Shown: one piece after another, positions 9,994 through 25,430 of the stretch
Position numbering within the stretch: position 1 is the stretch's first letter
How the letters are laid out: each line of letters starts with the position of its first letter
Source: Promethearchaeota archaeon
GTDB lineage: Archaea > Asgardarchaeota > Lokiarchaeia > Sigyniarchaeales > SOKP01
Length of the DNA: 64,000 bases
Direction of reading: 5' to 3'
NCBI GenBank assembly: GCA_019057865.1
Contig: JAHLWP010000003.1
Coordinates: 62,001 to 126,000, forward strand
The notes under the pieces: generated by a model
Told to the model about the DNA's origin: nothing
What the model saw: only the letters and a program-made list of their open reading frames with translations
Databases searched by the model: none
Translations under genes and position numbers: made by a program

Positions 9994-10698
9994 ATGGTTT
10001 CTCCAGATGGTTGGATTGATGGTATTACTGCCTCAGGTGTGGTAATTTTTGGTATAATCTTTGGTTTATTCTTTTTTTATGTATCAAGAAAAAGGAAAGC
10101 AAAACTTCTTTTATTTTTAGGTTTAGCTAATTTACTTGCAGGTCTAATGTTTTTAGGAGTGTTTTTAGATTTTTTACTGGTTGTAATAACAGAAAATAAT
10201 ATAGATAATTCGAATGGATTGGTTGGAATTCTTAGTTATATATGGTTTGCTCCCACCGTTATTACTGCGATGTATATTGGTACTGAACTCCTTACGCCAA
10301 AGATGAAATGGTATATAATATCTATAATTGCAATTATTAGTATTATTTTTGAAATTGTTATTTTCATGGATCCCTTAAACGCTTTTTATTTTGACGAACC
10401 GACGACGATCCCACCCGAAAGATTAATTGATTATAATGTTAATTTAGATACTATGGCAGGAATGTTAGTAGGGAGCCTATTACTATCTGTATTAATTTTT
10501 CTTGGAATCGGATTTTTATACAAGGCTTTTCAATCTACAGGTGAAATAAAAAGAAAGTTCTATTTCTTATCACTAGGTTCATTATGTTTTTGCATATTTG
10601 GACTTTTAGAAGGTTTAACTGCTCCAGGTTTTATGGTGATTATCGTAAGAATTGGCTACTTGAGTAGTTTTTGGTTTATGTACGTGGGATTAAGATAA
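9994..10698 (+). CDS. Heptahelical membrane protein lacking the zinc module (paralogue 1)
   Basis: The 234-residue protein has about seven hydrophobic helices and aligns with the membrane halves of the genes at 14633, 15876 and 21022. Shared marks are a short Lys/Arg loop after helix 1 (RKRKAK), FxLxxxxxENNxDN after helix 2, a proline-rich loop after helix 4 (MDPLNAF ... PPERLIDYN) and FLYKAFQSTGEIKRKF after helix 5. It stops right after helix 7 (YVGLR), where the paralogues continue into an eight-cysteine zinc module. It may be the sensor-only member. No known family is recognised. Confidence 0.75.
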   Translation: MVSPDGWIDGITASGVVIFGIIFGLFFFYVSRKRKAKLLLFLGLANLLAGLMFLGVFLDFLLVVITENNIDNSNGLVGILSYIWFAPTVITAMYIGTELLTPKMKWYIISIIAIISIIFEIVIFMDPLNAFYFDEPTTIPPERLIDYNVNLDTMAGMLVGSLLLSVLIFLGIGFLYKAFQSTGEIKRKFYFLSLGSLCFCIFGLLEGLTAPGFMVIIVRIGYLSSFWFMYVGLR

Positions 10699-11429: not shown

Positions 11430-11688
11430 TTTAAGATTTTTAAGATATTTAAGATATTTATTTAAAATGATCTACTTATTAAATCATATATCTTATAATT
11501 AAACAACTAGTTTGAATAGTTTTTAATTTATATCTTTAGGATTTAATACCTACTTTTTTCAATAATATTACTAAATATTTGGATCAATAAAAAATAAAAA
11601 AGCGAAAATACAAAATATTATTGAATAAGGATTTTTTTTTTTATTAAAGCATCCTTTTATAAATAGCTGTAAATGGAGGAAATCTAAG

Positions 11689-14632: not shown

Positions 14633-15679
14633 ATGCCTTCTGCTATTGGAGTAATAAATGCTTTAACCGTTATTATATGGTTTACCCTTGGTTTAATATG
14701 GGGGATATTTAGTCTAATTAAATCAAAGAAATCAAAATCATATGTTTTATTTTCTATGGGTTTAGCTGTATTATTTATAAGCTTTTTATATTCAGGTTTG
14801 GTCTTAGATTCATTATTAGTTCTTTTTACAGAGAGCAACTTAGATACAAATATACATGGTATTCTTACATTTTTCTGGTTTGGTCCTTTAGTAATTATAG
14901 GTACCTATATATTTAATGAACTTATTGCGATGAACTTTAAATTATGGTTGAAGTATTTAATTTTAATTTATTTTTCAATAATAAGTATAATCTTTGAAAT
15001 TCTGTTATTTTTAACTCATTCAAGTTCGATCATTTATAAAATTCCCTCAGAACCTGGTCAAGACTTAATTGATAATATCTTAGTTTTTTGGACACCTCCA
15101 TTTTATATGCTGGCAATTTCTTTATTTCCTGGGATTATAGTATTTAGTCTTTCATTTTTATATGGGGGTATTAAATCCTCAGGAATATTAAGAAAGAAAC
15201 TCATATTATTATTAATCACTTTTGCAGTATTTTTTGGTTTTGGTTCTTTAGATATTGCTATTTTCCCTTTAGATTTCTTTAATTTACCTAAAGGTACATC
15301 AATAATTATAATAAGAGTTTTTATGATTATTGGGGGATTTATCTTTTTTTTTAGCTTAAAAGAAGAATCCATTAAAGCTTCCATTAAAAAATTTAAATCT
15401 GAAGAACCATCTCTTATAGATATTTTAACTGAGACTAAATCTAAAGATATATCACAAGAAAAAATCTTAGCATTTCGAGAACAAACAATATGTCTAATCT
15501 GTGAAAGAGAAATACAAGGCTTTATTAAAATTTTCTTATGTCCTCAATGTGAAGCATTATATTGTGAAAGATGCGCACAAAAGATGATAGAAATGAGTAA
15601 TATGTGTTGGATATGTGATGAGCAAATTGACGAATCAAAACCTGTTAAGCAAGATAATGATATATCTGGAAGCCTATAA
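14633..15679 (+). CDS. Heptahelical membrane protein with C-terminal RING/FYVE-like zinc module (paralogue 2)
   Basis: The 348-residue protein has seven hydrophobic helices (about 7-28, 36-65, 76-98, 105-127, 150-179, 189-212, 221-242). Positive loops after helices 1 and 5 predict N-out, C-in. The cytosolic tail carries C287, C290, C303, C306, C311, C314, C325 and C328: spacing C-x2-C-x12-C-x2-C-x4-C-x2-C-x10-C-x2-C. This fits a cross-brace zinc fold of RING/FYVE type. There is no known-family match I can name. It lies within 1.5 kb of ubiquitin. An E3 or adaptor role is inferred from the zinc module and the neighbourhood. Confidence 0.8.
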   Translation: MPSAIGVINALTVIIWFTLGLIWGIFSLIKSKKSKSYVLFSMGLAVLFISFLYSGLVLDSLLVLFTESNLDTNIHGILTFFWFGPLVIIGTYIFNELIAMNFKLWLKYLILIYFSIISIIFEILLFLTHSSSIIYKIPSEPGQDLIDNILVFWTPPFYMLAISLFPGIIVFSLSFLYGGIKSSGILRKKLILLLITFAVFFGFGSLDIAIFPLDFFNLPKGTSIIIIRVFMIIGGFIFFFSLKEESIKASIKKFKSEEPSLIDILTETKSKDISQEKILAFREQTICLICEREIQGFIKIFLCPQCEALYCERCAQKMIEMSNMCWICDEQIDESKPVKQDNDISGSL

Positions 15680-15863
15680 TTAAAAGCTATTTTTAAAATG
15701 CTAAAAAAAAGTAATATGACATCTCGCTTTACATTAACGTGAAAAAATTTTTAAGTAAATCGAGCAAAATTAATTATGTAATCTTTTGCAAATTTAGATT
15801 TTGTCATTAAAAAGAAAAACACAAGCTCAAATATAATACTAAATCTACTACTATAATACAAAA

Positions 15864-15869
15864 AAGGTG
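15864..15869 (+). promoter_or_regulatory. Shine-Dalgarno-like AAGGTG deciding an ATT start
   Basis: AAGGTG lies six bases before an ATT at 15876. A stop codon closes the frame at 15870, so translation must begin after it. The first ATG/GTG/TTG in frame is at 15996, inside conserved sequence. Confidence 0.5.
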
Positions 15870-15875
15870 TAATAT

Positions 15876-16979
15876 ATTACTTTAACTCCTATTGGACTAT
15901 TTAACGGAATAACAGCAATTATTTGGTATATTACTGGCTTAATTTGGGGTTTCTTTAGTCTCTATAGATATAAAAAATCAAAAGCAGATATTTTATTGTA
16001 TTTTGGCTTAACAATTATATTCATAAGTATGTTTTTCACTGGTATTATTTTAGATTTTTTCACAATCCTCTTTACTGGCAAGAATTTGAATAATACCTCT
16101 GGAATTCATGGTATTTTAACATTTATATGGTTTGCTCCTACTCTCTCATTTGGGATATATATTGGTCTTGAATTTTTGATACCAGGTGTTAAAAAAGAAT
16201 TAAAAAATTCAATATTATTTACTTATATTATTTTAGCAATAATCTTTGATTTATTCCTTTTTTTAGACCCATTTGGTACTGTAGATTATAAGATGCCTTC
16301 AAAATCAGGGGAAAACTTAATTGATAATGTTTTAATTATAGGTTCTCCTGCTTCTATTTTAGTTATGATCTTTTTTGCAACAGCAATACTGTTCTATGTT
16401 GTAAGATTTTTGTATGGATCTGTTAAATCAACAGGTCTCTTAAGAGAGAAATTCACTAGACTAACTATATGTTTTTTTCTCTTAATAGGGTTTGGAACAG
16501 TGGATATTTTATTTTTCCTGCCGACTATAATTTTAATTATTGTTAGATATGGAATGGTTGTTAGTGGACTTTTTTTTGTTTTGGGAGTAAAAAAAGAAGA
16601 AGCGCCAACCAAACCAAAAGAAGTTATTCATGATGATGAAGTTGAGAGTGGAGTCCTAACAACTTCATTATCCAAGGTTTTATCATATTCTAGACCATCT
16701 GATATATCTACAAATGATATTGAGTTATATCGAAAACAAACAATCTGTTTAGTTTGTAAAAAAAAATTAAAAGGATTCATAGACGTTTTTATTTGCCCTA
16801 AATGTAAGTCATTTTATTGTGATAAATGCGCTCAAATATTAACTCAGTTAGAAAATATGTGTTGGTCATGTAATAATCCAATTGACGATTCAAAACCCAT
16901 TAAACCTTTTAAAATTGAAGAAGAAGATATCGATATCAGCATATCAGAAGGATCAAGGAAAACACTCAGAGAGGAATAG
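15876..16979 (+). CDS. Heptahelical membrane protein with C-terminal RING/FYVE-like zinc module (paralogue 3), probable ATT start
   Basis: Conserved sequence (IGLFNGITAIIWYITGLIWG) matching the first helix of paralogue 2 extends back to 15876 but contains no usual start codon; the first is a TTG at 15996, which would delete helix 1. ATT at 15876 with AAGGTG six bases upstream is my choice, giving about 367 residues. Seven helices are followed by a tail with CLVC, x12, CPKC, x4, CDKC, x10, CWSC. The loop after helix 4 keeps the DPFG ... SGENLID pattern. Tail ends in acidic residues. Same inferred role as paralogue 2; adjacent to the ubiquitin gene. Confidence 0.78.
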   Translation: MTLTPIGLFNGITAIIWYITGLIWGFFSLYRYKKSKADILLYFGLTIIFISMFFTGIILDFFTILFTGKNLNNTSGIHGILTFIWFAPTLSFGIYIGLEFLIPGVKKELKNSILFTYIILAIIFDLFLFLDPFGTVDYKMPSKSGENLIDNVLIIGSPASILVMIFFATAILFYVVRFLYGSVKSTGLLREKFTRLTICFFLLIGFGTVDILFFLPTIILIIVRYGMVVSGLFFVLGVKKEEAPTKPKEVIHDDEVESGVLTTSLSKVLSYSRPSDISTNDIELYRKQTICLVCKKKLKGFIDVFICPKCKSFYCDKCAQILTQLENMCWSCNNPIDDSKPIKPFKIEEEDIDISISEGSRKTLREE

Positions 16980-17129
16980 CACATAATAATAGTCACATAA
17001 TAATTATAAATAAATGAAATTAAGATTACATAAAAAGAAATAAAATATTTAAATATATAATATAAATTTTAAAATAAATTAAATTAATCATTAAAAAACT
17101 AAATTATTTAAAAAAAGAGAGAGATTTAT

Positions 17130-17396
17130 ATGCGAATAACAGTTGAGGATTCACGAACAGGTAAAGTTATTAAACTTGATGTTAAGGAACATCATACAAT
17201 TGAAAGGATTATAGACATAATTGTAAAGCATATGGGCATTATTAGTGCTGAGGAACGTGCATACACTTTAGTATTAAATGGAAAGGAGTTACCTACAACA
17301 ATAACCATCGAGGATTCTGTCCATAAATTTGGTTTAAAAGAAAACGACAAATTAGCCTTATGGGCAAGAGTCATAGGGGGTTATTATAAACATTAA
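17130..17396 (+). CDS. Ubiquitin-like protein precursor
   Basis: The 88-residue protein has the beta-grasp pattern of ubiquitin: MRITVED, LDVKEHHTIERIIDIIV, LVLNGKELPTTITIED and LKENDKLALWARV. The conjugation diglycine is at 83-84 and is followed by a four-residue tail, YYKH, so it must be cut to expose Gly84. The JAMM protease encoded at 19022 is the obvious candidate. E2, E1 and the protease lie on the opposite strand, convergent. An AT-rich run near 17047-17060 (TTTAAATATATAA) could be its TATA box. Confidence 0.92.
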   Translation: MRITVEDSRTGKVIKLDVKEHHTIERIIDIIVKHMGIISAEERAYTLVLNGKELPTTITIEDSVHKFGLKENDKLALWARVIGGYYKH

Positions 17397-17405
17397 ATTA
17401 TTTTT

Positions 17406-17437
17406 TAATTGGAGATAATACAAAGGTTTTCCAATTA
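17406..17437. terminator. Hairpin between convergent ubiquitin and E2 genes
   Basis: TAATTGGA and TCCAATTA form an 8-bp stem with a 16-base loop, ten bases after the ubiquitin stop and 35 bases from the E2 stop. Its place between convergent genes suggests a bidirectional terminator. Confidence 0.4.
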
Positions 17438-17471
17438 TTAAAGTTAAGATTAAGAACGATATTTAACTTTT

Positions 17472-18029
17472 CTAATCTATGATGACTATGTCATCCTTTT
17501 CTTCCTCTTCTTCTTCAATTTTGAATTCTCTCTTGAGGTCTTCCATAGTATTTTGCTTAAAAAAATTTGCTGCTTCTAAACAGACATCATATTTTAATGG
17601 ATCATCTGGATTAGGATTCTCCACTAATTTTTGCAAGGCTTTGACGGTAGTCTCTAAATCTGTAAGTCTTGACCATTTTTTTAGAATGTTTAAACAAATA
17701 TAGCCAGTTCCAGATTCGTAACGCAAGGGGGCTTTAGCAGGATGAATATTGGGATGAAATATATTTGATTGCCAAGAGAATCTAATACCTCCAGGATATG
17801 GAAAAGCTCTATTTAGTTCCAAATGAATTTGATGATCTTTCTGAGGAACAATATCAATTCCTTCCTTAAAAGTACCCATAATAAAACCTAAGGCTTTTAA
17901 ATTGATTAAAAACTTAACACTATTATCACTTTGAATTATTGAATTCGTATCGATAACGTTTAAGCTTTTTAAACTTTTAATTTCATTTTCAATCCTATTT
18001 TTCCAAATTTCTAAAGGAAGTTCTGGCAT
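17472..18029 (-). CDS. E2-like ubiquitin-conjugating enzyme
   Basis: The 185-residue protein has the UBC fold order: FPYPGGIRFSW, HPN at 92-94 (oxyanion motif), the active-site cysteine C112 in GTGYICLNILKKW, then TDLETTVKALQKLVENPNPDDPL. C112 would hold the ubiquitin thioester taken from E1. The last 15 residues are strongly acidic (EEEEEEKDDIVIID), like the acidic tails of some eukaryotic E2s. It is the last gene of the minus-strand run longin-GTPase, JAMM, E1, E2. Confidence 0.92.
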   Translation of the reverse strand: MPELPLEIWKNRIENEIKSLKSLNVIDTNSIIQSDNSVKFLINLKALGFIMGTFKEGIDIVPQKDHQIHLELNRAFPYPGGIRFSWQSNIFHPNIHPAKAPLRYESGTGYICLNILKKWSRLTDLETTVKALQKLVENPNPDDPLKYDVCLEAANFFKQNTMEDLKREFKIEEEEEEKDDIVIID

Positions 18030-18124
18030 CTTTTTAAAATTAAAAATCTCATTAAGTTACATATTGATATTTTCTTTCTTTATATTTATAATAATCATTT
18101 TTTATTTTGAAATGGATTTAATCT

Positions 18125-19003
18125 TCATTTATTATCCTTATAAGAACATGTCCAACAATCTGGATTCTTTAACTTTTCAATAACTTCAAATTTATTTATT
18201 AGTCCATTGTAATTTAATTGTTTTCCTATTAGTGGTTCACCAATATGAGGATTCCATTTACCTTGTTCCTTAAAATGATCATTTCCTAATATAAATTTTA
18301 TTACTTGTTGAGATTGAATTCCTCCAATAATAGAAGTTGTAGTAATTATAGTTGCAATTTTACTAATAGTAGCTCCATTCGAAGATTCGATTTCTTCTCC
18401 CGTACAGGAAAACTTTAACCACATTAGATCTAGATCAGCGCCAGAAATCCCGCATTGCAAACAAGCAGCATCAGCAACTCCAGAATAAACAGCTTGGACT
18501 GATCCAAAGAATTCATCAATTCCAGAATCAATAAAAGGTACTTGATAATAATAAGCATAATTATTTGCTTCAAGTCTAGCTTCAACATTATCAAGACAAG
18601 AGCAAATCACATCCACTTGTTTATACAAATCTTTATCTATCTCATTAAGAGCTTTCTTTATTGTTAAAATTTTAACTTCAGGGTTGAGTTTTTCACACGC
18701 TGCTTTAATGATATCTACTTTATATTTATTTTCTACTTTATTTTCCATATTAAACAAAATACATCGATTAAGATTAGATTTTTCAATAATATCATAATCA
18801 ATAATAATTAACTTTCCAATTCCACTCAAGCATAAATTTTTAGCGACTTCGTTACCGGTTGCACCAACCCCTATTATCATTACCGTCGCATTTGAGATCT
18901 TATTTTGGTCCCATCCAGCAATTCGTTTCTGCCGATCATACTTATCGTCATTTATATCCTCCTCTCCTAAGAATTTATATTCATTATCACTATTTTCTGT
19001 CAT
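18125..19003 (-). CDS. E1-like ubiquitin-activating enzyme (ThiF/MoeB/UBA family)
   Basis: The 292-residue protein has the adenylation core: RQKRIAGW (Arg finger), GVGATG at 45-50, IDYDIIEKSNLNR (69-80) and CLDNVEARLEAN. A zinc site is formed by CLQC (181-184) and CWTC (283-286). Cys200 in FSCTGEE sits where UBA-type enzymes carry a catalytic Cys followed by Thr, so it is the likely thioester cysteine. It would adenylate the ubiquitin-like protein and pass it to the E2 downstream. It is a single-chain E1 without separate ubiquitin-fold domain. 18 bp after the protease gene. Confidence 0.92.
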   Translation of the reverse strand: MTENSDNEYKFLGEEDINDDKYDRQKRIAGWDQNKISNATVMIIGVGATGNEVAKNLCLSGIGKLIIIDYDIIEKSNLNRCILFNMENKVENKYKVDIIKAACEKLNPEVKILTIKKALNEIDKDLYKQVDVICSCLDNVEARLEANNYAYYYQVPFIDSGIDEFFGSVQAVYSGVADAACLQCGISGADLDLMWLKFSCTGEEIESSNGATISKIATIITTTSIIGGIQSQQVIKFILGNDHFKEQGKWNPHIGEPLIGKQLNYNGLINKFEVIEKLKNPDCWTCSYKDNK

Positions 19004-19021
19004 AATTTTACAGGACTATTT

Positions 19022-19540
19022 CTACTTGATAATGGCATAACTAATTTCTTTATACCCATTTTCGGATTGATCATTTAAAGTAAAAAATTTAAATTCATCT
19101 CTAATTGGATCAACAACTAAAGCTACATGATACGATCTATTAAAAATTAAGCTTTGCGTAGTTAAATCAACACTACTTAAAAAGCATCCAATATTTGGAT
19201 GGGAATGCCACCATCCTAAATTTAGTAAGTTTTCATTATTTTGATCTAATTTCAATTTATCATATTCCTCCGAATATTTAGAAAATTCAAATTGAATATT
19301 ATTTATTATTCCTTTTTCTCCTGATTCTTGAAATGAAAATTCATTTGCTATGAAAGCTTCCTTTATGTAAAGATAATGATTTAATAAAATATATTTCTGT
19401 TTATTCCAAATGTAGCGTTCTCCAACTAAATAACCAAAAACTTCATTTACATTTTCTTTACATATCTTTTTAATCCCTTCTATTACTTCTTTAGTAATAT
19501 ATAATGGAAATACGTAATTCTCGTCAATTGTCATAATCAT
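19022..19540 (-). CDS. JAMM/MPN+ metalloprotease (RPN11-like deubiquitinase)
   Basis: The 172-residue protein has the JAMM zinc site H112-S-H114-x7-S122-x2-D125 in WWHSHPNIGCFLSSVD, with the upstream glutamate E33 in NEVFGYLVG. Rpn11-type JAMM proteases cleave after the ubiquitin diglycine. Here the job is probably to mature the YYKH-tailed precursor and to recycle ubiquitin from conjugates. It lies between the longin-GTPase and E1 genes with gaps of 28 and 18 bases, so it is cotranscribed. Start could be Met1 or Met3. Confidence 0.93.
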   Translation of the reverse strand: MIMTIDENYVFPLYITKEVIEGIKKICKENVNEVFGYLVGERYIWNKQKYILLNHYLYIKEAFIANEFSFQESGEKGIINNIQFEFSKYSEEYDKLKLDQNNENLLNLGWWHSHPNIGCFLSSVDLTTQSLIFNRSYHVALVVDPIRDEFKFFTLNDQSENGYKEISYAIIK

Positions 19541-19568
19541 GAAATTTTATTGATTTTAAGTATCTATA

Positions 19569-20492
19569 TTAGTTTGATTTTTCTATTTCAGAAACTTCCT
19601 TTTGTTTCATTTGAATTTTATTATAAATAGAATTTTTTAGAATTTCATTCATTATTATAAAAATATTTTTAGCTGAATCTTCTTGGATTGCTGTAAATCC
19701 ATATGTCTTTGCACCAAAAGTTTCTTGAATTTCTTTAGGGTCGAAAGATGTTTCTTTTAAATCCTGAAAATTGGCAATAATATAAAAATCTGCTTTCAGA
19801 ACCTTCTTCTTTAGTTTTAAATATAATTTTTTAGTTCTTCTTAAATTACTTGCTGCTGAATTAGTTATAATACAGATAATGTCGCATATGTTTAACAAAG
19901 ATTTATAGTGCTTTGAATTACTTATTAAATCTTCTAAATCAATTTCTTTCAAGATAAATTGCTTTATATTTCCTAGATTTGTTATATCAACTGGTTTTTC
20001 AATTATTTCAGTCATATCATCATCTATATCTAAAACAGTCTCTCCAGGAAATAAATCCATGATAGTAGTTTTTCCTACACCAATTTCTCCAACAAATAAT
20101 ACTTTTGGGGAAATAAAAATATATTCTTCAACAAATTCATCAAAACTTTCGAATATCTTAGTTTTACCTGTCCAGTTCTCTAGATATGTTTGGTATCTAT
20201 TGATAAACTCATTTTTCATTAATTCAACTTTTTCTCTCACTTCATCTTCCAAATCTTCTATATCTGTTACAATGACAAATATACAATCAAATTCAGAAGA
20301 ATAGGAATATATAAATTTGAAATTTTTAAAGTTAAGTGATTTTATTTCACCAACTTTAACTGCTTTAGCAAATCCACTAATTGCTGTAAGGAAGCCGCTA
20401 ATTAAATCATCTTCTACTTCACTGGGTCTTATATAATTCTTTGAATAACATAGTATCCCTCCTTTTGCGATAACGTAAATTCTTGATATCAT
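19569..20492 (-). CDS. Longin-like domain fused to small GTPase, in the ubiquitin operon
   Basis: The 307-residue protein has an N-terminal longin/roadblock-like module (about 1-105: IYVIAKGGILCYSKNY, ISGFLTAISGFA, FDCIFVIVTD) and a GTPase with P-loop GEIGVGKT at 135-142. G3 is degenerate, and G4 may be the NFQD in IANFQDLKE. It is the first gene of the operon that continues into JAMM, E1 and E2. Its first 290 residues are paralogous to the N-terminus of the 871-residue nitrilase fusion at 22150. Such proteins in eukaryotes act at membranes; a link to ubiquitin membrane signalling is inferred from the operon only. Confidence 0.82.
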   Translation of the reverse strand: MISRIYVIAKGGILCYSKNYIRPSEVEDDLISGFLTAISGFAKAVKVGEIKSLNFKNFKFIYSYSSEFDCIFVIVTDIEDLEDEVREKVELMKNEFINRYQTYLENWTGKTKIFESFDEFVEEYIFISPKVLFVGEIGVGKTTIMDLFPGETVLDIDDDMTEIIEKPVDITNLGNIKQFILKEIDLEDLISNSKHYKSLLNICDIICIITNSAASNLRRTKKLYLKLKKKVLKADFYIIANFQDLKETSFDPKEIQETFGAKTYGFTAIQEDSAKNIFIIMNEILKNSIYNKIQMKQKEVSEIEKSN

Positions 20493-20524
20493 CTTCTCGC
20501 TTTGGTAAATTAGGTTAATGTTTT

Positions 20525-20569
20525 TATACTGAGTATGCCGGAATTTAATTGTCGGGGCAACTCAATATA
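20525..20569 (-). promoter_or_regulatory. Structured GC-richer element upstream of the longin-GTPase/JAMM/E1/E2 operon
   Basis: Arms 20525-20539 and 20556-20569 pair over about 13 base pairs with one mismatch and one bulged A, including GAGT-TGCC against GGCAACTC. The element is the only GC-rich patch in this gap, 33 bases upstream of the operon's first ATG. It could be a 5' leader structure or an operator. Confidence 0.4.
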
Positions 20570-20590
20570 CATCCATTTTAATTTAATTTA

Positions 20591-20609
20591 AGATAATAAG
20601 ATTAATTAA
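20591..20609 (-). repeat. Copy 1 of a 19-base element shared by two longin-GTPase genes
   Basis: The 19 bases AGATAATAAGATTAATTAA occur identically at 24810-24828, in each case upstream of a minus-strand longin-GTPase gene. Similarity extends about 10-15 bases to each side. It may be a shared promoter or a relic of the gene duplication. Confidence 0.5.
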
Positions 20610-20681
20610 AATGATTATGAAAAATATATATAAATATAATTAAAAAGTTTGAAACTATAGAAAAATATCAAGGGAGCTCTT

Positions 20682-20843
20682 ATGCATGATAAACAAAATG
20701 GTGATTCATATCCAACAATAGTAAAAACAAAAAAGAAAGGAATAATAGAGCGCAAACCTCCAAATGACAAAATTATTTTTTACAAATTCACCAAGACAGA
20801 AGAAGCAAATGAAACAAAAACAGAAGAAAATAATGGTACTTAA
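20682..20843 (+). CDS. Small 53-residue protein of unknown function
   Basis: An ATG at 20682 is preceded by AGGGAG at 20671-20676. The frame encodes 53 residues, starting MHDKQNGDSYPTIVKT and rich in Lys, Glu, Asn and Thr. The composition is hydrophilic and unlike the AT-driven hydrophobic noise of this genome. There is no cysteine and no membrane helix. It lies between the divergent ubiquitin operon and paralogue 4. No family is recognised, and it may still be noncoding. Confidence 0.4.
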   Translation: MHDKQNGDSYPTIVKTKKKGIIERKPPNDKIIFYKFTKTEEANETKTEENNGT

Positions 20844-21006
20844 AAAAACTCGTAAATATAAATTCAAAATGGAATAAAGCTATATTTAAGCATTAAGGAT
20901 ATTAAAAAAAAGGGGAATTTATAAAATTAGACATACTTGTAACAATTTTTATATTAATATAAAAAAGAGATAATTACAATAGAAATTATAAAGAAATATA
21001 TTTAAA

Positions 21007-21013
21007 AAGGTGG
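21007..21013 (+). promoter_or_regulatory. Shine-Dalgarno AAGGTGG setting a TTG start
   Basis: AAGGTGG lies eight bases before TTG at 21022. A GTG at 21010 is inside this site and is therefore an unlikely start. The same motif and spacing precede the TTG of the endonuclease IV gene at 57885. Confidence 0.55.
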
Positions 21014-21021
21014 ATCCGAAA

Positions 21022-22083
21022 TTGCTTTCTGATGTAGGTTGGCTTAATGTTATCTCAATAATGGGCATTTTTATATTTGGCTGCTCTTTTGGATTATACT
21101 TTATGTATCAAGGTAGAAAGACTAACGTTAAACTCCTTTTTTATATGGGTTTGGGTATCCTTTTTAATGGTCTTTGGTATTGGGGAAATTTTTGGGAGTC
21201 GTTATCAATTCTTATCACAGGTGAAAATTTTGATAATGTATCAGGTATAAATGTACCATATGAATTACAGGCTATTATGAGCTTTATTTGGGTACCTTTA
21301 ACAATAATTTTTGTTGTGTATGTAGGTGGTGAGCTCCTAATACCTAAAAGAAAATGGTACATTGTAGGGTTTATTATATTTTTAACACTTGTATGGGAAT
21401 TGTTTCTTTTTTTAGATCCATTAGGATCTATATCAATTTATGTTCCCACAGTACCAGGTGAAGATCTCGTTGATGAAGATTTTATTATTAATTCTCTTTT
21501 ATACTTCATTGGTTTCTTATTCTCACTTACGAGCTTACTATTTCTTGGAATTGGTTATTTAATTAAAAGCATTAAATCAACAGACATATTAAGAAAAAAA
21601 TATTTTTATTTAGCAATTGGCTTTATTTTAAATCCCATGTTTGGAATGATTGAGGGATCAGGTATTATTGGTGTTGGTCTATTTTTAGTAAGAATTGGTA
21701 TGTCTTTTACTTTTTTATTGTATTACTTGGGTTTAAGAGAAGAACCCGCTAAAATTAAAATAGTACCTACTGAAAAAGAAGTTAAAATTGAAGATTCAAT
21801 ATTTAGGATTGCTAAAAAACCTGCCCAAATAACTGAAGAAGAAGTTACTTATTATAGAGAGCAGAAAATATGTTTAGTATGTAAAGGTAAGGCAGGGGGT
21901 TTCAATACGTATATTTGTACTGGATGTGATGCTTTATACTGTGAAAACTGTGCACGCGCATTATCCAGTATGGAAAATGTTTGTTGGGCCTGTAATGAGC
22001 CAATTGACAAGGAAAAACCTTCAAAACCATTTAAGATTGAGGGAGAAGAAGCTAAAGTTAAGGAAAAAGACAAGAAAATCTAA
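21022..22083 (+). CDS. Heptahelical membrane protein with C-terminal RING/FYVE-like zinc module (paralogue 4)
   Basis: Starting at TTG 21022 the N-terminus (LSDVGWLNVI) aligns with paralogue 1 (VSPDGWIDGI) and the protein has 353 residues. Seven helices are followed by a linker and a zinc module CLVC, x11, CTGC, x4, CENC, x10, CWAC, then a basic and acidic tail. The loop after helix 4 reads LDPLGS ... PGEDLVDED, the conserved extracytoplasmic pattern. It lies between the ubiquitin operon and the longin-GTPase-nitrilase fusion and converges on the latter. Role inferred as for paralogue 2. Confidence 0.8.
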   Translation: MLSDVGWLNVISIMGIFIFGCSFGLYFMYQGRKTNVKLLFYMGLGILFNGLWYWGNFWESLSILITGENFDNVSGINVPYELQAIMSFIWVPLTIIFVVYVGGELLIPKRKWYIVGFIIFLTLVWELFLFLDPLGSISIYVPTVPGEDLVDEDFIINSLLYFIGFLFSLTSLLFLGIGYLIKSIKSTDILRKKYFYLAIGFILNPMFGMIEGSGIIGVGLFLVRIGMSFTFLLYYLGLREEPAKIKIVPTEKEVKIEDSIFRIAKKPAQITEEEVTYYREQKICLVCKGKAGGFNTYICTGCDALYCENCARALSSMENVCWACNEPIDKEKPSKPFKIEGEEAKVKEKDKKI

Positions 22084-22149: not shown

Positions 22150-24765
22150 TTACCTTGTACTTTGTATAAATCTCTTATCTTTTTTTCGTTCTTTTTCCCA
22201 TTTTTTACGTTCTGAACGTAATTTAAAGAGATCCACATCTTTAAAAATCATGTTCTCTTCTTTAGGTGGTATTATTCTTTCAATACGCTCTTTTTCTGGT
22301 GTGTAAATGAGAGATTCTCCGAATTCAGCGATATTTACAAAGAAACAATAAGCATATATTGACCTCCGGGCATCAAAATGGGCTGCTTTAAAATCAGCTG
22401 TAACGGGAGTAAAGGCTGGATTGAACATTAAGTCTATTGGAGGTTCAAAATTCTTAAGTTCAACTCTGAGATCCATATCAAGAAAATCTCTACATATAGC
22501 TATTGCCATTCTACCAAATTCGGTATTACATATAATAGTTTGTCTTGGTACTGCTTCTGTCTTGATACCTTCTTTAAATCTTTTTCCTTTAAAATGTATA
22601 ATTGCTGGAATATGTTTTTCTTGCTCCCAAAGAATTCCATCTGGACTAAAAACTGCACTTATATTTTGCCTAGTTTCTTTATTGTGATATGATCCCGGGA
22701 TTATGTACATTTCATATAATTTGGCAAAATTAGATATATCCTCAAGAAATTTACCATAATTGAGGTCAATGGACATTTCTGGAAAAATGAGGATATTTAC
22801 ACTGCTAGCATGGGCTTTTTCTATCATATCCTTAATCTTAGATCTAATCACATCAATTTTGTCTTTACGGAGTCCTAACAAACCAGGAGTTTTTTCTTTA
22901 TAGAATTCTTTTAAATAATCCCCAGTACTAGATACTCCTATTTGAGCAATACCCACTCTACATTCTCTTCTTTGAATTTTTGGATACTCTTTTAATAAAT
23001 CTCTATAAATTAGTTTATATTTTCTATTTTTACCCCTTTTTTCCACTTCTTTTTTCGGAGTTGGTTGCGGAATTGATGGTACCAATAAATCTAAAGTATT
23101 TTTGGATATAGAAGGTTCGCTGATTGTACCTAATGCAGAAATTATTATTTTCTCTTCTTTCTCTATTAAATTCAAGCGATCTATGACTTCCTTTTCTCTA
23201 TCGTTATATCCTGCTTTACCAAATAGTTCAGCTGCAGATTTTAATACGCCAGATCCAATTTTTAAAAGTTTTTTCTTTTCTTCAAGATTTAATTCTTCAT
23301 CTGCTCTGATTATATACCAAGTAGCATCAAAATAAGTAGAAGTAGCAAGAGCCCAATTTGCCTCACTTTTAAACTCACCCTTTTGATACAAATTTGCAGC
23401 ATTTCTTAACATCATTTTAATTTTTGGATAAAATTCTGCCTTGATAGATGTGTCGCCTGCCTTATCAAATTTACAACCTAAACCTAATGCTTGACAAAAA
23501 GCAGAATTTCCTAAAGCTAATGACTTTAGTTTACTATTCGTGAAATGTTTACTAGCTTTAGTAAATAACTCTGCTGCTTCTGAATATCTTTCAGGGTCTT
23601 CATATTCTTCAGCACATTCCATAGCCTCCCATGCTCTACAAAGAAAAGAAATGGCAGTAAGTTCTTCTACATCTTGTTCGAATTCTACTCTTGAGCACAT
23701 GTCTTTAAATTGAGTAGCAGCACAAGAAAATTTTTCTGCAGCCGCAAGATGCTCACCTTTTCTTTCTAAAATTCTTGCTTTTTCTATTTGATCCCAAATA
23801 TCTACATAATCAACCTTCTCATATTCAGCTTTTTCTTCACTATAAAAGACAGGTTCTTCTTCTATTGTGAGGATATGTTTCTTTTCTATTTTATCTAAAA
23901 TAGAAATTTTTAGTATTTCTTTTATTATAAAAATTATTTTAGTTTTAGATTCCTCTTTAATTGCTGTAAAGCCAAAAGTTTTAATTCCAAGCGTTTCTTC
24001 TATTTTTTCAGGCTCAAATGCAACATCTTTCAAATCTTGAAAGTTTGCTAGAAGATAAAAGTCATTTTTCTTTACTTCAGGTTTTAATTCTGAGACTAAA
24101 GTCTTTGTTCGACCCAAATTACTTGCCGCTGAATTCGTAACAATAAGTACAACATCAACAGATTTTAATAAGTTTTTGTATAGATGCGGATTATAGGTCA
24201 GTTCTTCCATATTAATTTCTTGTATAATACATTGATGTATTCCCTTTAAATTATCTAAATTAATAGGTTTTTGAATAACCTCATTTAAATTATCATCAAT
24301 TTCCAAAATAGTGTCACCAGGAATTAAATCCATAATTGTTGTTTTTCCTACACCATCTTCTCCAGTTAATAAGATCCTAGGTGGAATAAATACATTTTCA
24401 TCCACAAAATCATCAAAATCTTCAAAAACACTAACATTTCCTGTCCAATTCTCTAAAAATGGTCTATATCTTATTATGAATTCATTTTTCATCAGTTCAA
24501 GTTTAGTTCTTGTTTCTTGTACAAAATCATCTTTATCAATTACAATAACAAAGATGCAATCAAATTCAAATGAGTAAGAATATATAAACTTAAAATTTCT
24601 AAAATTAAGGGCTTTTACTTCACCCCCTTTAATTTCTTTGGCAAAATCACTAATAGCTTTCAGAAATCCACTAATAACTGTTTCATCTATATCAATCTGC
24701 TCAAAAAAATTCTTAGAATAACAGAGAATTCCTCCTCTCGCAATAATGAAAATTTTTAATATCAT
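22150..24765 (-). CDS. Longin-like / GTPase / TPR-like / nitrilase fusion protein
   Basis: The 871-residue protein has four parts. Residues 1-105 are longin-like (IFIIARGGILCYSKNF). Residues 130-290 are a GTPase with P-loop GEDGVGKT (135-142). Residues 320-540 are helical TPR/SNAP-like repeats (EHLAAAEKFSCAATQF, YSEAAELFTKASKHF). Residues about 603-845 are a carbon-nitrogen hydrolase with Glu663 (FPEMS), Lys717 (EKHIP) and Cys758 (AICRD), the nitrilase triad. Nitrilase-fold enzymes hydrolyse amides or nitriles. The substrate and the reason for coupling it to a GTPase are unknown. Paralogous at its N-terminus to the first gene of the ubiquitin operon. Confidence 0.85.
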   Translation of the reverse strand: MILKIFIIARGGILCYSKNFFEQIDIDETVISGFLKAISDFAKEIKGGEVKALNFRNFKFIYSYSFEFDCIFVIVIDKDDFVQETRTKLELMKNEFIIRYRPFLENWTGNVSVFEDFDDFVDENVFIPPRILLTGEDGVGKTTIMDLIPGDTILEIDDNLNEVIQKPINLDNLKGIHQCIIQEINMEELTYNPHLYKNLLKSVDVVLIVTNSAASNLGRTKTLVSELKPEVKKNDFYLLANFQDLKDVAFEPEKIEETLGIKTFGFTAIKEESKTKIIFIIKEILKISILDKIEKKHILTIEEEPVFYSEEKAEYEKVDYVDIWDQIEKARILERKGEHLAAAEKFSCAATQFKDMCSRVEFEQDVEELTAISFLCRAWEAMECAEEYEDPERYSEAAELFTKASKHFTNSKLKSLALGNSAFCQALGLGCKFDKAGDTSIKAEFYPKIKMMLRNAANLYQKGEFKSEANWALATSTYFDATWYIIRADEELNLEEKKKLLKIGSGVLKSAAELFGKAGYNDREKEVIDRLNLIEKEEKIIISALGTISEPSISKNTLDLLVPSIPQPTPKKEVEKRGKNRKYKLIYRDLLKEYPKIQRRECRVGIAQIGVSSTGDYLKEFYKEKTPGLLGLRKDKIDVIRSKIKDMIEKAHASSVNILIFPEMSIDLNYGKFLEDISNFAKLYEMYIIPGSYHNKETRQNISAVFSPDGILWEQEKHIPAIIHFKGKRFKEGIKTEAVPRQTIICNTEFGRMAIAICRDFLDMDLRVELKNFEPPIDLMFNPAFTPVTADFKAAHFDARRSIYAYCFFVNIAEFGESLIYTPEKERIERIIPPKEENMIFKDVDLFKLRSERKKWEKERKKDKRFIQSTR

Positions 24766-24866: not shown

Positions 24867-25430
24867 TCAGCTTTTACCTTGCAATTCTAAGAATAATGCC
24901 TTATATTTATTATATAATTCTCTGATTATTACTTGAAAGGCCTGAGATACTCCTTCACCTGTTTTTGCTGATGTTCTATAATATTCAAGAAAATTTCCTT
25001 TTTTCATAATTTTTAAAATCTTTGTATCTACCAAATTCTCTTTATCAACTAAATCAACTTTATTAGCAAATACCACGATGGGAATATCACCACAAAATTT
25101 AAGAATATCATCATGCCAATTTGGTATATGCTTGAGACTATTTTTACCAAGATCATTTTCTTCAAGCGAATATACAATAATAGCTGCTTTGCTATCTCTA
25201 TAGAAGGAGGGTCGTAAGAAATGAAACTCATCTTGACCCGCAATATCCCAGAAAAAAAGCTCACAAAAGTCTCCATCTATTTCCATTTCATATATAGAAA
25301 ACTGTGCTCCAATAGTTTTGATGTATTCCTCTTGAAAATTACCTTCTGTAAATTTTTGTATTAAGGATGTTTTCCCTACTTGCCCATCTCCAATAACAGT
25401 TATTTTAAATACAAATTTTTGCCTTTTCAT
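24867..25430 (-). CDS. Rab/Ras-like small GTPase
   Basis: The 187-residue single-domain GTPase has G1 GDGQVGKT, a Thr in EYIKTIGAQF (G2), WDIAGQDEF (G3), ANKVDL (G4) and TSAKTG (G5), all intact. This is the classical Ras superfamily layout and closest in style to eukaryotic Rab/Ras. There is no C-terminal cysteine for prenylation, which is usual for Asgard small GTPases. It is upstream of the longin-GTPase-nitrilase gene on the same strand with a 101-bp gap, so the two may be linked. Confidence 0.92.
   Translation of the reverse strand: MKRQKFVFKITVIGDGQVGKTSLIQKFTEGNFQEEYIKTIGAQFSIYEMEIDGDFCELFFWDIAGQDEFHFLRPSFYRDSKAAIIVYSLEENDLGKNSLKHIPNWHDDILKFCGDIPIVVFANKVDLVDKENLVDTKILKIMKKGNFLEYYRTSAKTGEGVSQAFQVIIRELYNKYKALFLELQGKS

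Follow-up and report, generated by a model that had tools for sequence, protein, structure and literature searches.

Membrane proteins with a predicted RING-like tail accompany a second ubiquitin system in Asgard archaea

We analyzed a 64,000-nucleotide stretch of the genome of a Promethearchaeota archaeon (GenBank assembly GCA_019057865.1, contig JAHLWP010000003.1, positions 62,001 to 126,000; G000:C54:62001-126000 in our numbering, genome size 4.26 Mb). In this stretch, hereafter the window, genes for a ubiquitin-like modifier and its enzymes lie among genes for seven-helix membrane proteins with a cysteine-rich C-terminal tail. It is the tail and not the helices that tracks ubiquitin across Asgard genomes, and we propose, with a probability of roughly 60%, that the tailed seven-helix proteins are membrane-tethered ubiquitin ligases (E3s) of a second Asgard ubiquitin system. 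A prior inspection of the bare DNA letters (the sequence-only reading) had named them candidate membrane E3s; the predicted RING fold, the gene neighborhoods and the co-occurrence described below support that proposal, and from these we infer the ligase activity itself.

The three tailed proteins are encoded on the forward strand at window positions 14633..15679 (tail about 15458-15676), 15876..16979 (tail about 16710-16916) and 21022..22083 (open reading frame from 21010 or 21022; tail about 21838-22041), the latter two being 42% and 30% identical to the first. Seven predicted helices followed by an eight-cysteine tail are encoded in all three open reading frames, as the sequence-only reading had it; likewise, the paralog at 9994..10698 (forward strand) is tail-less and aligns to the helical part alone. 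A fourth tailed paralog lies beyond the window (G000:C23:116458). The gene at 15876 is followed on the same strand, 150 nucleotides downstream, by one for an 88-amino-acid (aa) ubiquitin-like modifier (17130..17396, forward), whose C-terminal end reads ...VIGG plus YYKH; the V-x-G-G motif is kept in all 22 of the cluster ubiquitin copies printed, and the residues beyond it are variable. On the opposite strand are genes for a divergent E2 (17472..18029), a 292-aa E1-like protein of the ThiF fold (18125..19003), a JAMM/MPN protease with an HSHP...SSVD signature (19022..19540), and a P-loop protein, possibly a GTPase, with sub-threshold AAA, Roc, Arf and Rab matches only (19569..20492). Pfam matches to UQ_con (46.1 bits against a cut-off of 27; 4.8e-12), ThiF (9.9e-48) and JAMM (1.3e-10) bear out the claim that E2, E1 and JAMM genes sit, with the ubiquitin gene, among the seven-helix genes. 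The E2 has an HPN motif and a catalytic-type Cys, with H92-P93-N94 and C112 invariant in 11 of 11 aligned divergent E2s, and is matched by E2s of the PDB at 7.7e-8, placing it within the E2 family; its C-terminus is acidic, with a short hydrophobic end.

The tails of the window proteins read C-x2-C-x11/12-C-x2-C-x4-C-x2-C-x10-C-x2-C, the pattern originally reported. For conservation and folding we aligned 41 of 49 collected tails, the eight left out (L006, L040, L043, L073, L080, L098, L139 and L140) being fragments, a copy lacking the last ligand and C-x2-H types; "invariant" thus refers to the kept set. All 41 tails have C at seven of the ligand positions; at the fifth, 38 have C and three have H; because the ligands are conserved to this extent, the eight-ligand pattern is not a product of chance. 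The AlphaFold2 model of the tail of the 15876 protein (predicted local distance difference test score, pLDDT, 84) shows two strands and a helix of the RING type, a predicted cross-brace binuclear fold that would coordinate zinc. In a Foldseek search with this model, RING/U-box ligases make up 45 of the 50 listed PDB rows, and the RING rows include chains of HRD1, RNF13, TFIIH p44 and GATOR2; p44 also matches the tail in sequence at 6e-4. A plain zinc ribbon, the outcome that the sequence-only reading had set against its own proposal, is rejected by this model. Precomputed RING domains are found on nine of 120 listed relatives, eight of 120 bearing Prok-RING_1 (PF14446), a model that matches 16 of the 41 tails weakly and stays below its cut-off for the window proteins. 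We call the tail RING-like because its spacing is FYVE/PHD-like, the linchpin residue is missing, and the Pfam RING cut-offs are not reached. Three positions corresponding to the E2-binding groove of RINGs are hydrophobic (V/I, L/M and W) in each of the 41 kept tails, the invariant W standing after the seventh Cys, where we take classical RINGs often to carry P; this pattern points to a putative E2-facing surface.

The link between tail and ubiquitin was assessed across 227 Asgard genomes, in each of which up to 26 tail candidates and up to 14 E2 candidates were scored. The tail profile finds 76 genomes at E<=0.001, of which 35 have strong matches (E<=1e-10); the other 41, with weak matches (E 1e-3 to 1e-10), stand outside the co-occurrence counts. 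The co-occurrence with E2 suggested by the sequence-only reading is uninformative for E2s in general, as some E2 occurs in 168 of the 227 genomes, and this version of the comparison was dropped; profiles of the divergent window-type E2 and of the ubiquitin are informative, and both are linked to the tail. The divergent E2 (profile A4, E<=1e-25) is present in 24 genomes: 23 have both it and a strong tail, one the E2 only, 12 the tail only and 191 neither (Fisher 1e-21). The corresponding counts are 21/1/10/33 within the window organism's own family (p 1.7e-8) and 16/1/4/21 for family members at least 90% complete (p 5e-7). The association also holds within genera, with 21 co-occurrences against 13.7 expected, a value reached in none of 200,000 draws. 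Leaving out five genomes taken as having the C-x2-H tail subtype (G099, G136, G157, G158 and G161) gives 20/4/10/193 (p 1e-17; two of 200,000 stratified draws). The ubiquitin profile finds 26 genomes at E<=1e-40, of which 25 also have a strong tail and one does not; 10 genomes have the tail only and 191 neither (p 3e-24). Thus, far from occurring mostly in genomes without ubiquitin genes, an outcome on which the original proposal was to fall, the strong tail is accompanied by this ubiquitin in 25 of 35 genomes.

The sole ubiquitin-only genome, G138, has a ubiquitin gene with two in-frame stops and an E2 cut by the contig end. Of the ten tail-only genomes (G096, G098, G104, G105, G117, G131, G136, G150, G154 and G160), six fall short of 80% completeness. 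G131, with intact tails, is at 100%; G117, G136 and G160 reach 94-100%, and stops interrupt some of the tails in G117 and G136. G154 encodes a more distant ubiquitin within a 549-aa protein (L170:4890-6536), in which an N-terminal ubiquitin domain (...VVGGGE) is fused to a further region. Profile searches of G132 and G157 found ubiquitin and no window-type E2.

Conserved gene neighborhoods reinforce this association. Among the 22 same-family clusters, 17 have a tail gene no farther than about 4 kb from the E2 gene; given the number of tails and the size of the genomes, 0.40 of 22 would be expected to have one within 5 kb. The tail gene precedes ubiquitin on the same strand in 16 of the 17 (at some distance in G113 and G152); the exception is G146, where it is found past the JAMM gene. 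Sorted by eye, the tail genes of 12 of the 17 look intact (G000, G112, G121, G146, G144, G108, G107, G109, G137, G113, G152 and G123), that of G107 being of the C-x2-H subtype and the E2 of the G152 cluster having a stop near its end; the rest are fragments (G124, G120 and G135), lack the last ligand (G118) or are cut by a contig end (G127). Five clusters are without a tail gene, three at a contig edge (G106, G111 and G138) and two with full flanks (G110 and G099). In the f4 genomes G158 and G161, ubiquitin and E2 are on different contigs, with no tail gene in the stretch read. A homolog of the P-loop gene is in or near 20 of the 22 clusters, the remaining two being cut by contig ends.

Ubiquitin genes are found at 33 places at E<=1e-20, 11 of them outside E2 clusters. 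Five of these extra loci (two in G121 and one each in G135, G113 and G132) combine ubiquitin with a P-loop homolog and a six- to seven-helix tail gene, and a sixth, near a contig start (G135:C95), combines it with a seven-helix tail gene and a longer P-loop/hydrolase gene. No match to E1, E2 or JAMM of the window turns up in the 9-16 kb read at any of the six; at the other five places (G120, G154, G157, G158 and G161), the stretch read is free of tail genes. No other single observation hints so strongly at a joint function of tail and ubiquitin as this pairing where the other enzymes are missing. The part shared at ubiquitin loci is the tail, and the N-terminal parts differ. As a separate observation, of the ubiquitin paralogs of the five P-loop/tail cassettes (L161-L164), four end exactly at GG and would therefore need no processing.

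The seven-helix part behaves differently. Its named relatives are from Asgard archaea, mostly Promethearchaeota, with some named Loki-, Thor-, Hodar-, Heimdall- or Hermodarchaeota. The AlphaFold2 model of the full-length 21022 protein, built on an 85-row alignment in which the three window proteins are joined by 82 of the 120 relatives listed, has a mean pLDDT of 84 and predicts seven helical segments, the third broken, with the tail as a separate domain. In the 85 rows the loops on the C-terminal side are on average positive (net charges +3.8, +1.7 and +3.5) and those on the opposite side negative (-0.7, -0.4, -3.6 and -1.0), which fits the predicted N-out/C-in topology of the sequence-only reading; the stretch directly after helix 7 (-0.8) adds no support. 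The helical core is present in 63 of 65 family genomes and has no association with window-type ubiquitin (p 0.54), which a near-universal core could hardly show. The core was therefore rejected as the ubiquitin-linked part, leaving the tail in that role.

The tail recurs on a wide range of other proteins, at or near the C-terminus in those read, with at least 26 matches in one genome and 25 in G099. Its carriers include seven-helix and eight- to nine-helix proteins (helix counts by simple hydropathy), transporter-like proteins (MFS_1 at 30-32 bits against a cut-off of 33.4), TPR proteins, giant proteins and, in G107, a soluble protein with zinc ribbons; several of the proteins read have the C-x2-H subtype. 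Three of the giant proteins scanned contain beta-helix repeats, one also PKD, with one hydrophobic segment between repeats and tail. L153, L154 and L155 (G108 and G099) encode proteins about 1000-1370 aa long that combine beta-helix repeats, joined in one of them by PKD repeats, with a C-x2-H zinc tail, and that have hydrophobic segments near both ends. A 109-aa "stand-alone soluble tail" in G124 was dropped, there being no start codon before the tail; it is probably a 5'-truncated gene. As E3 families build target choice by such module reuse, the N-terminal part likely sets the target or signal.

Taken as a membrane E3, the protein would work as follows. Anchored by the seven-helix domain, the RING-like zinc tail would sit at the inner membrane face and bind the divergent E2 once this carries the neighboring ubiquitin, which would then be passed to targets near the membrane or to the tailed protein itself. 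The JAMM protease would trim the residues after GG, and may also remove conjugates and thereby recycle ubiquitin. The ubiquitin, E1, E2, JAMM protease and tail form a compact set of proteins for direct reconstitution. If the ligase proposal is right, membrane-tethered ubiquitin ligases would predate eukaryotes, having arisen in their closest archaea, as an expanded family of modules in place of a single soluble E3, and marking by ubiquitin at membranes, beside P-loop switch-like proteins, would belong to the early evolution of trafficking and receptor down-regulation in eukaryotes.

Several features weigh against a ligase. Classical RINGs follow the consensus C-x2-C-x(9-39)-C-x(1-3)-H-x(2-3)-C-x2-C-x(4-48)-C-x2-C, from which the tail departs in having four residues between ligands 4 and 5 and a C as ligand 4; the window proteins reach at most 18.1 bits with the Pfam RING models, the cut-offs of which are 27-29; a linchpin R/K after the last Cys is present in 0 of 41 tails; and the E3-contact loops of the window E2, YPGG and WSRLS, are unusual. 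The altered E2 loops and altered RING features could be a matched pair, or the usual E2 contact could be absent. The missing linchpin and the unusual E2 loops, together with the p44 and GATOR2 chains among the structural matches and the sequence match to p44, favor a RING-like adaptor devoid of ligase activity, which would bring one of its partners (E2, ubiquitin or the P-loop protein) to the membrane or hold a complex together; a role of this sort is usually ascribed to the RING-like domains in TFIIH p44 and GATOR2. We give this account a minor though real chance, for the link to ubiquitin is specific and repeated, the three groove positions are uniformly hydrophobic, and the linchpin residue is not universal among RINGs, being dispensable in some.

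It is improbable that the tailed proteins are instead the targets, with the tail as a regulated ubiquitin-acceptor or sorting signal and another RING protein as the E3. That transporter-like, multi-pass and giant repeat proteins carry the tail close to their C-terminal end would suit such a role, as would the soluble sub-threshold RING proteins of the genome discussed below, but an acceptor would need no eight conserved ligands, invariant W or RING fold, and tail genes adjoin ubiquitin even where the other enzymes are missing. The sequence-only reading had left a choice between RING and FYVE: the fold is predicted to be RING, and the FYVE spacing, C-x2-C...C-x2-C-x4-C-x2-C...C-x2-C, which is also PHD-like, does fit the tail. 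This spacing, together with the public labels of relatives ("PHD finger," "DC1" or "B-box") and weak sub-threshold C1_2 hits to 37 of the 41 tails (E<=0.01), more than any RING model gives, could indicate a lipid- or peptide-binding zinc finger of the FYVE, C1 or PHD type, the proximity to ubiquitin being secondary. We hold this for quite improbable, since just one of the 50 Foldseek rows is a FYVE domain, the residues before the third Cys are mostly hydrophobic, and the domain of a protein already in the membrane hardly requires lipid targeting; the basic R(R/K)HHCR motif of FYVE domains is absent from the 49 collected tails. The FYVE model itself matches three of 41 tails weakly at E<=0.01, and among the window proteins it scores 15.1 bits (cut-off 27.8) in one and finds no match in the other two. 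Finally, tail genes and the ubiquitin cluster, both patchy in the family, might co-travel in genomic islands without a joint function; this is very improbable given that the association holds within genera, that strong tails are on many contigs per genome and yet only 10 of 201 genomes without this ubiquitin carry them, and that the tail is the shared part at a locus next to differing N-terminal parts.

Going beyond the ligase proposal, one might picture an archaeal type of receptor, in which a GPCR-like seven-helix sensor with a RING-like ligase tail, a dedicated ubiquitin and a P-loop (GTPase-like) protein would turn membrane signals into ubiquitin marks, the tail having been grafted onto transporters and surface proteins. 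The three-gene cassette would then be ubiquitin, P-loop switch and membrane ligase. We regard this extension as doubtful.

Among known systems, the closest parallel is the Caldiarchaeum subterraneum ubiquitin operon, which is reported to encode the RING-like zinc protein srfp with ubiquitin, E1, E2 and JAMM/Rpn11, srfp being a small protein of the RING-H2 class that is required for ubiquitin transfer in vitro and has an important Trp, W58 (PMC5654768). The window locus is alike in encoding a RING-like, putatively zinc-binding protein with the same partners; unlike srfp, the window domain is the tail of a membrane protein with C-x2-C-x4-C spacing and a Trp after the seventh Cys, the comparison being one of features. 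The eukaryotic HRD1 and RNF13 (PA-TM-RING) similarly join a transmembrane part to a cytosolic RING, and their RINGs structurally match the tail model, but these have the classical spacing, and their membrane parts are presumably unrelated to the window seven-helix part. TFIIH p44, part of a transcription/repair complex, has an all-Cys C4C4 RING-like domain of similar fold with a weak sequence match, but stands outside any ubiquitin gene cluster. Archaeal ubiquitin operons with a small RING E3 (PMC5654768) and membrane RING ligases of eukaryotes are already known. Our search of open-licence full-text literature listed no paper that, judged by title and the start of its abstract, describes a membrane RING in archaea, nor one on Asgard membrane proteins whose RING-like tails form a family linked to a ubiquitin of their own.

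The statement that no soluble E3 is visible holds for the window and is doubtful for the whole genome. Three soluble proteins (L005:1117-1680, L008:1459-3153 and L009:1459-1941) match zf-RING_2 at 21-26 bits, below the cut-off of 27.3 and better than the window tails, and are candidate cytosolic E3s judging by their sequences; each has a Trp before the last ligand pair. Another protein (L007:1492-2706) has a C-terminal C1-type zinc finger over the cut-off and, being Ssl1-like with a VWA domain, is more likely an Asgard relative of TFIIH p44 than an E3.

The genome also has two canonical E2s, and its canonical ubiquitin cluster (C41) includes a gene for a membrane protein. A 389-aa multi-pass protein (L085:11198-12367; G000:C41:65197-66363) is encoded adjoining the JAMM gene and beside the E2 gene, and resembles the window proteins in joining a hydrophobic multi-pass N-terminal part, which differs from that of the window family, to a C-terminal Cys/His tail. 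This tail, C-x2-C...CPxC-x4-H...W...C-x2-C, is possibly RING-like as read by eye, which we offer as a lead only; the protein has no Pfam zinc-finger match. At E<=1e-10, 97 of 227 genomes have a homolog, which starts 1.3-2.4 kb from a canonical E2 in at least 42, counting genomes where both are listed. An hhalign comparison with the window tail gives a probability of 40% (E 3e-4 for this single comparison), and the two tails may be related. Should the tail of the 389-aa protein prove to be a RING, anchoring to the membrane would be a common trait of ubiquitin clusters in Asgard archaea.

Further genes of the locus include one on the reverse strand (22150..24765) that couples the cluster's P-loop part to a C-terminal domain resembling carbon-nitrogen hydrolases (20.9 bits against a cut-off of 23.2), near-full-length homologs of which adjoin the ubiquitin genes of several relatives, and one for a small Ras-like GTPase (24867..25430, reverse strand), assigned by sequence without a family scan, with homologs near the clusters of several relatives. 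The C-terminal acidic stretch of the 11 aligned divergent E2s (window 17472-17540) ends in an acid-flanked short hydrophobic motif such as DDIIIIDD, which we take to resemble a SUMO-interacting motif and which may be a binding site for the ubiquitin-like partner. The 15876 gene has no ATG, GTG or TTG at its start (window 15866-15878); a GGTG motif is followed there by ATT, and by ATA at the same place in G112 (L074 about 11592-11605), which suggests a non-standard start codon.

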